Below are positions 2,266-31,089 of a stretch of DNA of 64,000 nucleotides, in pieces. Both the position numbers and the translations under genes were made by a program. The stretch spans positions 1 to 64,000 of the forward strand of contig JADIMU010000030.1 of NCBI GenBank assembly GCA_017694495.1. Direction: 5' to 3'. The DNA is from Candidatus Aphodenecus pullistercoris. Its GTDB lineage: Bacteria > Spirochaetota > Spirochaetia > Sphaerochaetales > Sphaerochaetaceae. The notes beneath the pieces were generated by a model, which was given only the letters and a program-made list of their open reading frames with translations, was not told where the DNA came from and searched no databases. Each line of letters begins with the position of its first letter. Position 1 is the first letter of the stretch.

Positions 2266-4314
2266 TCAATCGGACGGCTCTTGTGTACCGTCGGCGCTGA
2301 GGATGCGTCTGAGCGTCGCATGCCGGCTCTGCAGCAGTCCCCTGTCCTCCTGGATTATGGCCTCGGCGTCCTCCTTGGCCTGTGCCATGAGCTCGACGTC
2401 GTCGACGAGGGAGGCGACCTTCAGACGGAGGAAGCCGGACTGCCTGTTTCCGATGAAGTCGCCGGGACCCCTCAGCCGGAGGTCGGTCTCGGCGATGCGG
2501 AAGCCGTCGTTCGACTCCCTCATGACGATCAGCCTCGCCTTCGCCTCCTCGGTCAGTGTGCCGTAGTAGACGAGGAAGCACCAGCTCTGCAGCTCACTGC
2601 GTCCGACACGGCCGCGCAGCTGGTGCAGAGCCGCCAGGCCGAAGCGCTCGGCATGCTCTATGACCATGCATGTGGCATCCTTGATGTCTATGCCGACCTC
2701 CACGACCGAGGTTGAGACCAGGTACATGAGCTTCTTGTCGCGGAAGTCGTCCAGTATCCTCATCTTCTCGTCCTCGGGGAGGCGGGAGTGGATGAGGGCC
2801 GAGGGTATGCCGGGATACTTCTCCTTCAGGAAGGAGAACATCGTCGTGACGTCCTTCAGGTCGCCTTCGCCCTCGTCGTCGATCCTGGGGTAGACGAAGT
2901 AGGCCTGGTGTCCACGGGAGAACTCTACGCCGATCGAGGCGTACATCCTCTCGCGGTTCTTCTCGTCCACGATGTGCGTGATGATGCTCTTGCGTCCCAT
3001 CGGCTTGCTGTAGATCGTCGAGATGTCCATCGAGCCGAAGACCGTCATGGCGAGGGTGCGCGGGATTGGGGTGGCGCTCATCATGAGGAGGGACACGTCC
3101 TTTCCCTTGCTCCTCAGCGCCTCCCTCTGCTCGACGCCGAAGCGGTGCTGCTCGTCTATGATGACCAGGCCCAGGCGCTTGAAGGCGACGTCCTTCGAGA
3201 AGAGGGCGTGGGTGCCTATGGCCAGGTCGATGCCACCCTGGTGCAGGGCATCGAGGAGGTAGCCCCTCTCCTTGCCCTTGACGTCTCCCGTCAGGAAGGC
3301 GACGCGCACGCCGAGCTTCTCCAGGAGGGCGGCAGCCCCCTCGGCATGCTGTCGCGCAAGCAGCTCCGTGGGTGCCATGAAGGCGACCTGGAAGCCCCTC
3401 TCGATGCAATGCAGGGCCGCCATCCAGGCGACGAGGGTCTTGCCGCTTCCGACATCTCCCTGGAGCAGGCGGTCCATCGAACCTGCGTCCAGATCCTCTC
3501 TGATCTCGTCCAGGACCCTGAGCTGGTCCTCCGTCAGGCTGAAGGGAAGGGAGGCCTGCAATGCCTGTTCCAGCTTGCCCGCTTTGGGTGGGTGGGTGGA
3601 CTTGGCCCGCTTCTCCCTCTGGCGCTCGAGGCGCAGCTCGAGGTGCAGCAGCTCAGTGTATGCCAGCGTCAGGCGCGCCCGGTCGAGGCTGGCCCTGTCG
3701 CTGGGCTGGTGCAATTGTCGGATCGCCTCATCCGTGTGCATCAGGCCATGCTTCGCGACCAGGTCGTCCGGGACCTCGTCGTCGAAGTGTATGTACTTGT
3801 TTGAGAGGATGGCCTCGACGGCCTTGCGCACCGTCTTCTGGCTCAGATTGCCCGACAGCGGGTAGATTGGCAGGATCCGTCCGATGCCCACAGCCTCCTC
3901 GCTGGAGCCGAGGGTGAAGGCCGAGGCCGACCAGGCCGAGCCCAGGCGTGTCACGCTGGCGTTGATGTACCAGCTCGTTCCGACAGGGTAGGCGTTCTCC
4001 ATGAAGGCGCGTCCGAAGCAGTGGAGGTAGAGCGTCCGTCCGCTTCTCAGGTCCTTGGCTCCAATCTTGAGGACCCTCTTGCCCTTGGCCATGTAGTGGC
4101 CGTGGTCCGTGATCGAGACGATCGTGTTGATCGTCCCGCCTTCGGGAGGCAGGTCGGCCAGGCTGGTCATGACAGTCCTGTCGTCGTAGTCGCGCGGGTA
4201 GAGCGTTATGAGGTCGCCTCCGGTCTCGACGCCGAGCGCGGCGAAGTCCGCGGCGCTCACCTTGCCTATCCCCTTGAGCTTCGTGATGGGGAAGGCCAGC
4301 TGGCGCGCGAGCAT
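2266..4314 (-). CDS. recG: ATP-dependent DNA helicase RecG
   Basis: 682 aa; LLQGDVGSGKTLVA, IIDEQHRFGVEQR, MMSATPIPRTLAM, VVEVGIDIKDAT, LRGRVGR. Confidence 0.97.
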   Translation of the reverse strand: MLARQLAFPITKLKGIGKVSAADFAALGVETGGDLITLYPRDYDDRTVMTSLADLPPEGGTINTIVSITDHGHYMAKGKRVLKIGAKDLRSGRTLYLHCFGRAFMENAYPVGTSWYINASVTRLGSAWSASAFTLGSSEEAVGIGRILPIYPLSGNLSQKTVRKAVEAILSNKYIHFDDEVPDDLVAKHGLMHTDEAIRQLHQPSDRASLDRARLTLAYTELLHLELRLERQREKRAKSTHPPKAGKLEQALQASLPFSLTEDQLRVLDEIREDLDAGSMDRLLQGDVGSGKTLVAWMAALHCIERGFQVAFMAPTELLARQHAEGAAALLEKLGVRVAFLTGDVKGKERGYLLDALHQGGIDLAIGTHALFSKDVAFKRLGLVIIDEQHRFGVEQREALRSKGKDVSLLMMSATPIPRTLAMTVFGSMDISTIYSKPMGRKSIITHIVDEKNRERMYASIGVEFSRGHQAYFVYPRIDDEGEGDLKDVTTMFSFLKEKYPGIPSALIHSRLPEDEKMRILDDFRDKKLMYLVSTSVVEVGIDIKDATCMVIEHAERFGLAALHQLRGRVGRSELQSWCFLVYYGTLTEEAKARLIVMRESNDGFRIAETDLRLRGPGDFIGNRQSGFLRLKVASLVDDVELMAQAKEDAEAIIQEDRGLLQSRHATLRRILSADGTQEPSD

Positions 4315-28593: not shown

Positions 28594-28952
28594 AAGTCAA
28601 GCTCTACATCGTCGACGACAAAGGCGAGAAGTTCATGGGCATAGGTGTCCTGTGGCTTCTGGAGCGTGTCGAGAGTCTTGGAAGCCTCAGAGCGGCCGCA
28701 AAAGACATGACAATCTCCTATACAAAGGCTTACAATATGGTCAAGAGGCTCGAGGCCACCTTGGGCCACGAGGTCCTCGAGATGAGAAGAGGAGGAGCGT
28801 CCCATGACGGGGCGTGCCTGACAGCCTTCGGACGGCGGCTGTGCTCCCTCTACCGCGACTTCCAGCAGGAGGCCAAGGAGAGGGTGATGGAGCCTTATGG
28901 AACCTTCAAAAGTCGTCTCGAAGAAATGATGGAGGAAAGAACGGATGGGTGA
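28584..28952 (+). CDS. ModE N-terminal-like winged-helix protein
   Basis: GVLWLLERVESLGSLRAAAKDMTISYTKAYNMVKRLEATLGHEVLEMRRGGASHDGACLTAFG; no molybdate-binding domain. Confidence 0.75.
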   Translation: MDLKVKLYIVDDKGEKFMGIGVLWLLERVESLGSLRAAAKDMTISYTKAYNMVKRLEATLGHEVLEMRRGGASHDGACLTAFGRRLCSLYRDFQQEAKERVMEPYGTFKSRLEEMMEERTDG

Positions 28953-30270
28953 TCGGCTTTACGATTTCGAGATCGAGACCCTCGGAGAGGCCAAGCTCCA
29001 GTCTCCGATCAGGATGAGCCACCAGGGCGGAGACGGCATGGCCGACTACGTCAAGGACGAGGACAAGGTCCTCTATTCGACAGAGACCGAGGTCGTGGAC
29101 GGCAAGAGGCAGCCTGTCCATGAGGACGCCATGGAGGTCGCCGGACCCAGGGAGAAGATCTACTTCAACCCCAGCCATGTGCACGCCGCGATATGCACCT
29201 GCGGAGGCATCTGCCCCGGACTGAACAACGTCATCAGGGCCGTCGTCCGCTGTCTGTGGTACCGCTACGGCGTCAGGAGGATCTCCGGAATCCAGTACGG
29301 CTACCTTGGCCTGCTCGAGAACTCCTCCTGGCCCCTGATCCCCCTCGATCCTGATGTCGTCGACGACATCCAGGAGAAGGGCGGAACCATCCTCGGCAGC
29401 GCCCGCGGCGGCGGAAAGCAGGTCGAGGAGATCGTCGACTCCCTCGAAAGGCTGAACATCAACATCCTCATCTCGATCGGTGGCGACGGCACCCTGCGCG
29501 GAGCATACGACATCGGTGAGGAGATCGCCAAGCGCGGCCTCAAGATTGCAGTCGTCGGCGTTCCCAAGACGATCGACAACGACCTCAGCTTCATCGACTC
29601 CTCCTTCGGCTTCGACACCGCCGTCGCATCGGCCGTGCCCGCCGTCCGAGGAGCCCACGTCGAGGCCAAGAACTCGATCAACGGCATCGGACTTGTGAAG
29701 GTCATGGGACGCGAGTCCGGCTTCATCGCCGCGCACACCTCCCTGGCGCAGTCCGATGTGAACTTCTGCCTGATCCCCGAGAGCCCCTTCGACCTCGAAG
29801 GACCCAACGGATTGCTCGAGCACCTCAAGAGGAGGATCCTCGAGCGCGGACACGCCGTCATCCTGGTCGCTGAAGGTGCGGGCCAGGAGTTCGCTCCTCC
29901 CACGGGAGAGACGGATGCCAGTGGAAACATCAAGTACCATGACATCGGCATCTTCCTGAAGGAGAGGATCAAGCAGTACTTCAAGGACGAGGGCATCCCG
30001 ACCTCCGTGAAGTACATCGATCCTTCCTACATCATCCGCTCCTCCCCGGCAAACAGCTACGACTCGATCTACTGCGCCCGTCTTGGCGCCCACGCCGTCC
30101 ATGCGGCCATGGCCGGCAAGACCCGCTGCCTGGTCAGTCGTGTGAACAACCAGTTCGTCTACCTGCCCATCAAGCAGGCAGTCTCGCGCAGGAGCCACGT
30201 CGACACGGAGGGAAGCCTCTGGAGGGACGTCCTCGAGAACACGCGCCAGCCATTCAGCATGAAGAACTGA
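28945..30270 (+). CDS. 6-phosphofructokinase family (ATP- or PPi-dependent)
   Basis: CTCGGICPGLNNVIR, ISIGGDGTLRGAYDI, GVPKTIDNDLSFIDSSFGFDTA, KVMGRESGFIAA. Confidence 0.92.
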   Translation: MGDRLYDFEIETLGEAKLQSPIRMSHQGGDGMADYVKDEDKVLYSTETEVVDGKRQPVHEDAMEVAGPREKIYFNPSHVHAAICTCGGICPGLNNVIRAVVRCLWYRYGVRRISGIQYGYLGLLENSSWPLIPLDPDVVDDIQEKGGTILGSARGGGKQVEEIVDSLERLNINILISIGGDGTLRGAYDIGEEIAKRGLKIAVVGVPKTIDNDLSFIDSSFGFDTAVASAVPAVRGAHVEAKNSINGIGLVKVMGRESGFIAAHTSLAQSDVNFCLIPESPFDLEGPNGLLEHLKRRILERGHAVILVAEGAGQEFAPPTGETDASGNIKYHDIGIFLKERIKQYFKDEGIPTSVKYIDPSYIIRSSPANSYDSIYCARLGAHAVHAAMAGKTRCLVSRVNNQFVYLPIKQAVSRRSHVDTEGSLWRDVLENTRQPFSMKN

Positions 30271-30279
30271 GAAGACATC

Positions 30280-30304
30280 GCCCGGGTCAAGGCCCGGGCA
30301 TTTT
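30280..30304 (+). terminator. intrinsic terminator after PFK
   Basis: GCCCGGG-tcaagg-CCCGGGC followed by ATTTTT. Confidence 0.9.
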
Positions 30305-30500
30305 TCTGTCCATTGCCCATCACTTTCCTTCCAGATTGGTCAAAATCGAGCTATCGGACAGAAAATTCTCAAGAATTTCAAAAAATTTTACAAAGAGAAT
30401 AAATATATACAACACAAAGAAAAATCTCTGGGGAAATGGCTGCATTGTCCCAAATGGGAATAAAAATCGAAGATTTGTATACAAATTTTCCAAAAAAATA

Positions 30501-30529
30501 TTGACACACAATCCGTATTCCTATATCTT
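30501..30529 (+). promoter_or_regulatory. sigma70-type promoter
   Basis: TTGACA, 17-nt spacer, TATCTT. Confidence 0.7.
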
Positions 30530-30535
30530 AGGGCC

Positions 30536-30633
30536 ATAAACACAGGGAACGGAAGTTCCCAGACATATAAATTTACCTCCTTTTGTTCCCCTACAGCGGT
30601 TTACCTCCTTTTTCCCGCATAGGGGTTTTTTTT
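30536..30633 (+). ncRNA. putative sRNA or attenuated leader with two anti-SD repeats
   Basis: Promoter 7 nt upstream; hairpin GGGAAC-GGAA-GTTCCC; TTTACCTCCTTTT at 30572-30584 and 30600-30612; terminator stem CCCCTA/TAGGGG with inner GCGG/CCGC then T8. Confidence 0.6.
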
Positions 30634-30797
30634 ACCCAGACGCCATCCTCGACCGGCTTGAAGCTCCAATTGCCGGCAGGAGCCGTAGATTAGCCATCTC
30701 AAACATTCTTGGTCTCTGCCGCTTGACCTGTGTTAGCTTTATTTAACATTTCATCTCCTTTTCTCATCAGATGTTCTTCCTCAATCCCAAAAAGGTG

Positions 30798-30826
30798 TTG
30801 ACCTCCTGTGTCTGTTTGCATATGCT
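30798..30826 (+). promoter_or_regulatory. feo operon promoter
   Basis: TTGACC, 17-nt spacer, TATGCT; overlaps GCTAA/TTAGC repeats. Confidence 0.6.
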
Positions 30827-30870
30827 AACTCTCGAACTGGAAATTAGCACCAGCTAACAAAAGAGGACTG

Positions 30871-31089
30871 ATGATGCCACTTACATTGATGCAGATTGGA
30901 GACAGGGCGACCGTCTCGAGGATTGGTGGAAACGAGGATACCAGACGGTACCTGATGAATCTCGGTTTCGTGAACGCGGCCGAGCTTGAAGTGGTCAACA
31001 GACTAGGCGGCAACGTGATCGTCAGCGTCAAGGACGCACGCATCGCACTGAACGCCGATATGGCGAAGCACATTATGGTGGATCTCTGA
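30871..31089 (+). CDS. feoA: FeoA domain protein
   Basis: 72 aa SH3-like FeoA; MPLTLMQIGDRATVSRIGG...YLMNLGFVNAAELEVVNRLGGNVIVSVKDARIALN. Confidence 0.88.
   Translation: MMPLTLMQIGDRATVSRIGGNEDTRRYLMNLGFVNAAELEVVNRLGGNVIVSVKDARIALNADMAKHIMVDL

Follow-up and report, generated by a model that had tools for sequence, protein, structure and literature searches.

The window, the whole 64,000-nt stretch of DNA analysed here, contains a putative small RNA (sRNA) of about 98 nt on the plus strand at 30536–30633, delineated by a promoter, a predicted fold, a terminator and its conservation. The conserved upstream neighbour, lying outside the RNA on the same strand, is pfk (28945–30270), a 6-phosphofructokinase gene identified by Pfam (PF00365, E 5e-65) and by synteny. 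This gene carries its own terminator at about 30281–30305, and the RNA is therefore a separate unit. On the other side, feo starts about 240 nt downstream of the RNA. Inverted repeats (TTAGC-ACCA-GCTAA and TTAGCTTTATTTAACA) are present before the feo genes at 30690–30870, and are possibly operators of a DtxR-type iron regulator.

The anatomy of the locus, its conservation, the promoter motifs and the statistics of ribosome binding sites (RBSs) were computed. Read directly, the sequence has a -35 box TTGACA (30501–30506), a 17-nt spacer and a -10 box TATCTT (30524–30529), which form a plus-strand sigma-70-type promoter (30501–30529) that is kept in same-genus relatives. It is followed by a 5' hairpin (30545–30560, plus strand) with arms GGGAAC (30545–30550) and GUUCCC (30555–30560), found in the fold and supported by compensatory changes in relatives. 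The exact repeat TTTACCTCCTTTT occurs twice on the plus strand, at 30572–30584 and 30600–30612. It has no third match in the 64-kb window with one mismatch allowed, and 0 were found in 100 shuffles. Each copy forms an anti-Shine-Dalgarno (anti-SD) site reading UUUACCUCCUUUU with an invariant core. Site 1 is in an unpaired linker and its conserved core reaches 30591 (ACCUCCUUUUGUUCCCC); site 2 is in the terminator loop, with a variable stem around it. The terminator stem (30588–30625, plus strand), seen in the fold and in its covariation, comprises two stacked helices, 30588–30593 with 30620–30625 and 30596–30599 with 30615–30618, which enclose a loop at 30600–30614. A run of eight T residues (T8, 30626–30633, plus strand) follows, and a T-run is present in 28 of 28 aligned copies. 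The minimum free energy given by RNAfold is -24.5 kcal/mol (z -2.08), and both sites are unpaired in the predicted folds. The preliminary description of this DNA had placed the promoter, the 5' hairpin, the two exact 13-nt repeats, the terminator and T8 correctly to the base. RNAfold returns the fold that it had drawn, with the first repeat in a single-stranded linker and the second in the terminator loop.

A 151-nt stretch of the locus is single-copy in its own genome. The unit, for which the preliminary description had made conservation in close relatives decisive, is present in each of the other 15 same-genus genomes (15/15) and, across the family, in many genomes. The same architecture is predicted in the 16 same-genus sequences examined. 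Within the genus the 5' hairpin shows compensatory changes (GGGAAC/GUUCCC, GGAAAC/GUUUCC and CAGGAA/UUCCUG). A promoter with a 17-nt spacer, whose -10 box lies 40–47 nt from CCTCC, is found in 15 of the 16 sequences; the other one ends at a contig edge. Across 28 aligned copies CCUCCUUUU (site 1) and ACCUCCUUUU (site 2) are unchanged. In the same alignment CCTCCTTTT, TTCCCC and the second ACCTCCTTTT are invariant and the stems vary.

The RNA is also found well beyond the genus. A covariance model built from the core matches 146 of 398 Spirochaetia genomes, belonging to 52 of 135 genera, at E <= 0.01, and 15 families are matched at E <= 1e-4. In a phylum-wide sample the matches are confined to the class Spirochaetia. 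An exact composite pattern searched for in 85,488 species gave 44 contigs, 44 of 44 titled Spirochaetota, with Sphaerochaeta spp. among them. The search of related genomes that the preliminary description had suggested recovers the unit class-wide. The description had assigned the RNA to "this lineage", which agrees with its conservation in the genus but is too narrow, because the RNA occurs in many Spirochaetia families. In 75 sequences the terminator stem has a covariation score of 0.335, compared with 0.123 for shuffled and at most 0.096 for slid controls; this score leans towards structure because the 75-copy alignment was fitted to the model. Retention of the stem is expected of any intrinsic terminator, and what is telling is the near-constancy of the loop: the stem sequences covary and the repeats stay fixed. 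Three loci from two families (L070, L083 and L098) carry an additional hairpin on the upstream side that repeats the loop, GGTTTCACCTCCTTTCC, and gives the anti-SD module in tandem hairpins.

The stand-alone anti-SD sRNA of the preliminary description has strong comparative support, in that the promoter, the hairpin, two CCUCC sites and the terminator are conserved and no ORF is. The hallmarks of a trans-acting anti-SD sRNA, which are unpaired CCUCC-type segments, a promoter and a terminator of its own and no conserved ORF, are all found here. Judged from these comparisons, the locus very probably encodes a regulatory RNA of about 98 nt that is conserved across the class Spirochaetia.

The promoter of the RNA differs between families. 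Outside the Sphaerochaetaceae the pattern TGTWACY-N14-16-KGTT is present in 22 of 32 copies, against about 0.05 expected from shuffled sequence, mostly 51–67 nt upstream of the start of the covariance model. This layout is that of an ECF sigma promoter. It is found in 0 of 29 Sphaerochaetaceae copies, the window included. Scans of three entire genomes place this pattern 6 nt before an ECF sigma gene and also before genes for an HtrA-type protease (trypsin/PDZ), a protein with weak SurA/rotamase similarity and predicted exported proteins; the identities of these downstream genes are suggestive. The genome-wide scan gave roughly as many matches as the reversed control, and single matches are therefore leads only. 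TGTWACY-N15-KGTTW sites at L164, L160, L157, L155 and L158 are candidates for a sigma-E-like regulon of Spirochaetia. These motifs suggest that the RNA may belong to an envelope-stress regulon in the non-Sphaerochaetaceae families that have the pattern, and that the Sphaerochaetaceae may use a sigma-70-type promoter for it instead of the ECF type.

A perfect palindrome, ATTTGTATACAAAT (30473–30486), lies upstream of the -35 box at a fixed distance in the genus and is a possible operator. It is found 98–102 nt before CCTCC in same-genus copies with enough upstream sequence, except in the L018/L019 pair, which has a degenerate palindrome (TCTGTATACAAA). The core of the palindrome, TTGTATACAA, has two occurrences in the 1.8 Mb of its own genome examined, one of them elsewhere.

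The 3' end of 16S rRNA reads GGATCACCTCCTTTCT in five relatives and has ACCTCCTTT in common with both sRNA sites; the own assembly has no match for the 16S 3' end. Both repeats copy ACCUCCUUU of the 16S tail and continue with U where 16S has C. Pairing with SD regions and a block of translation, as shown by experiment for LhrC and AbcR1, would be the natural mode of action.

The predicted targets come from 1.80 Mb assembled from the own genome, in which 1633 ORFs were called. A first ranking included C residues of the stem and gave G-rich artefacts; it was replaced by one using the unpaired segments only. Ranking by raw duplex energy gave a weak enrichment of signal peptides, and a signal for solute-binding proteins (SBPs) emerged with contiguous complementarity. 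In this genome the longest complementarity to the unpaired segments is crowded with SBP genes carrying ACAAAAGGAG. Genes with AAAAGGAG in the RBS are SBP-like in 12 of 33 cases, compared with 8 of 451 among other AGGAG RBSs (p 1e-10), an association that could be inflated either by the A-rich leaders of SBP genes or by the use of SD strength in choosing start sites. With matching for A and AT content, 12 SBP-like genes are found where 2.5 are expected (0 of 20,000 permutations). In ranking SBP genes, native site 1 outranks 148 of 150 versions with shuffled CCUCC flanks. SBP-like genes were classified by a crude rule on sequence; Pfam finds SBP_bac_1, SBP_bac_8 or Bmp in 7 of 7 solute-binding candidates scanned. 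Of two further candidates scanned, one is a DUF1015 protein and the other is lipoprotein-like. For exported proteins outside the SBP group there is no clear enrichment in this genome (3/21 versus 36/443).

This signal was found and then tested on the same genome, and the count in other genomes is an independent check. Among 32 distinct ACAAAAGGAG genes from other members of the genus and family, 9 are SBP-like (p 1e-8, with a base rate of 2.1% taken from the own genome). Exported proteins account for 14 of these 32, and by eye further ACAAAAGGAG genes resemble those for permeases and ATPases of ABC or TRAP transporters. The target signal was not reproduced in 400 kb of one genome of the family (G036), where 0 of 14 SBP-like genes have CAAAAGGAG. 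The RNA core is conserved in G036 all the same, and SBP targeting is therefore not family-wide. The RBS comparisons support SBP targeting for the genus of the window and some relatives, not for the whole family.

Other candidate targets were also noted. An EF-G-like gene, recognised by eye at L289, L296, L297 and L332, retains the RBS ACAAAAGGAGG in at least four same-genus genomes. This RBS is complementary to site 1, and an identical string from RBS to start is found in two more genomes. A DUF1015 gene (contig C17, L183, about 3884–3900) matches site 1 over a greater length than any other gene in the own genome; its GGAGGTAAATTTAT runs into the start codon and gives 14 contiguous pairs. An exact 11-nt complement, AAGGAGGTAAA, was rejected as a long target, since its one site in the genome outside the sRNA sits within a coding frame.

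We infer transcription, base pairing, translational repression and an inducing signal as parts of the following model. The RNA would be a stand-alone, trans-acting sRNA of about 98 nt, made from its own promoter and ended by the intrinsic terminator. Its two unpaired copies of ACCUCCUUU, in the linker and in the terminator loop, would pair with the SD regions of mRNAs and keep ribosomes off. The bases flanking CCUCC would choose the targets, the 3' flank of site 1 (UUUUGU) matching RBSs that read ACAAAAGGAG. The mRNAs of ABC-transporter SBPs would probably be its preferred targets in this genus and in some sister genera. The RNA would act without Hfq, which was not found in any of 61 genomes (0/61) in a search whose controls were positive. 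In most other Spirochaetia families its control appears to lie with an ECF (sigma-E-like) factor for envelope stress. On balance, the explanation we consider probable is an sRNA that acts in trans and independently of Hfq to mask SD sites, with SBP mRNAs favoured. Within it anti-SD action is likely and SBP regulation is plausible; as far as sequence can tell, the RNA probably blocks the translation of chosen mRNAs, notably those of transport proteins that capture nutrients.

Several other readings of the locus were considered, some of which start from its neighbours. The preliminary description had suggested an iron link, and the RNA could be an iron-linked RNA or a leader of the feo operon, which begins so close to its 3' side in the window. 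An intrinsic terminator lies between the two, however, and the predicted pairing of the RNA with the feo RBSs is modest (-7.8 to -12.0 kcal/mol). Synteny contradicts this reading as well: genes downstream of the RNA change freely, and feo adjoins it in a few nearest relatives only, with unrelated genes elsewhere. The upstream pfk is kept in most Spirochaetia copies examined. In most Sphaerochaetaceae examined the RNA is about 110–330 nt 3' of pfk on the same strand, a spacing also seen in members of families f3, f4, f5, f17 and f22. The iron link was dropped because the conserved neighbour is pfk and not feo, and we regard it as very improbable. The position downstream of pfk might instead make the RNA a mere extended terminator or 3' UTR of that gene. 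This seems just as improbable given that pfk already has a terminator and the RNA has its own conserved promoter; moreover, pfk lies 1–3 kb upstream of the RNA in several further families and was not found within the approximately 3 kb fetched around it in some others. A functional element on the minus strand, with two SDs (AAAAGGAGGTAAA) before a small ORF, would account for the complement reading AAAAGGAGGTAAATTTATATG in several relatives. The frames downstream are only 12–32 codons and differ between relatives, the ATG is missing in many copies, and it is the plus strand that has the promoter and T-run; a minus-strand gene was rejected on these grounds and is hardly credible.

The remaining readings accept the sRNA and differ in what it acts on. 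Both sites copy the 16S tail, and the ACCUCCUUU bases are invariant in the family of the window while their surroundings differ between clades, as would be seen if the RNA were a general mimic of the tail that binds many strong SDs, has no specific targets and lowers translation as a whole under stress. A plain mimic would not be expected to have the extra U in both sites, or the 3' flank GUUCCCC, whose conservation in the same family extends past the SD complement. The RBSs of SBP genes also favour AAAAGGAG (12/33) over GAAAGGAG (2/19), which matches 16S, and general mimicry seems unlikely to us. Slightly less unlikely, though still doubtful, is an envelope-stress sRNA acting class-wide on outer-membrane or lipoprotein mRNAs as RybB and MicA do, with SBPs as a local subset. 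It is favoured by the ECF-type promoter, which is also found before HtrA-, SurA- and ECF-sigma-like genes, and by the proportion of exported proteins among the ACAAAAGGAG genes of other genomes. It is at odds with the lack of this promoter in all 29 Sphaerochaetaceae copies and with an enrichment in the own genome that concerns SBPs and not clearly other exported proteins. SD masking by a trans-acting sRNA with favoured SBP mRNAs agrees best with these observations.

Rfam gave no match at gathering in the window. The best score in 30450–30900 is an insignificant one to LhrC (RF00616; 20.5 bits, E 1.1, gathering cut-off 110 bits), and AbcR/alpha-r15, RsaE and csRNA-type families are not among the Rfam matches up to E 10 in this region. 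Streptococcal csRNAs and staphylococcal RsaE have C/U-rich anti-SD segments in unpaired regions. They come from a different phylum and have no Rfam match here. The analogy with them in the preliminary description is reasonable for the mode of action, but the closest published architecture is that of Listeria LhrC. LhrC1-5 have a very similar terminator hairpin with a GCGGUUUAC-rich loop, and combine a CU-rich single-stranded stretch with a CU-rich terminator loop as the present RNA does, which is a likeness of design and not of membership. The CU-rich regions of LhrC pair with SD regions and repress oppA, which encodes a substrate-binding protein, tcsA and others (PMC5880928). LhrC differs in being multicopy and LisR-controlled and in having loop A, a third loop rich in CU; the present RNA usually exists as a single copy, with no demonstrated sequence homology to LhrC. 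In Rhizobiales, the anti-SD sequence UCCUCCC in a loop of AbcR1 silences mRNAs of periplasmic SBPs of ABC transporters (PMC3712013). AbcR1 and AbcR2 (alpha-r15) share with the present RNA an exposed anti-SD and SBP mRNAs as targets, predicted ones in our case. They occur as tandem paralogues, fold into three hairpins and have predicted Hfq sites, whereas the present RNA has its sites in a linker and a terminator loop and occurs where Hfq was not found. RybB and MicA are Hfq-dependent and are not known to carry CCUCC repeats. These enterobacterial sRNAs are sigma-E-dependent and act on envelope-protein mRNAs (PMC1804206); unlike them, the copy in the window is not behind an ECF-type promoter. 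The RNA is a member of neither LhrC nor AbcR1; it is a new family within a functional kind of sRNA that is already known, and its action is likely to be LhrC/AbcR1-like.

No paper describing this RNA was found in the open-licence literature on Sphaerochaeta and Treponema sRNAs, with subscription journals outside the scope of the search. A 2022 review gives six annotated sRNAs for the whole spirochaete phylum (PMC9029176), and a Borrelia transcriptome paper states that neither of its two putative base-pairing sRNAs had been shown to pair directly (PMC10319736). Very little of the post-transcriptional control in spirochaetes has been charted. We tentatively propose, at somewhat less than even confidence, an ancient Spirochaetia-wide sRNA family with two copies of the 16S tail, which would first have been wired to a sigma-E-like ECF factor and then rewired to a housekeeping-type promoter in Sphaerochaetaceae, linking envelope or carbon status to the translation of SBPs and exported proteins without Hfq. 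The present RNA is a ready candidate for a new Rfam family. With its defined pairing sites, recognisable promoter type and ranked targets, this class-wide sRNA offers a model of Hfq-free riboregulation that can be tested directly.
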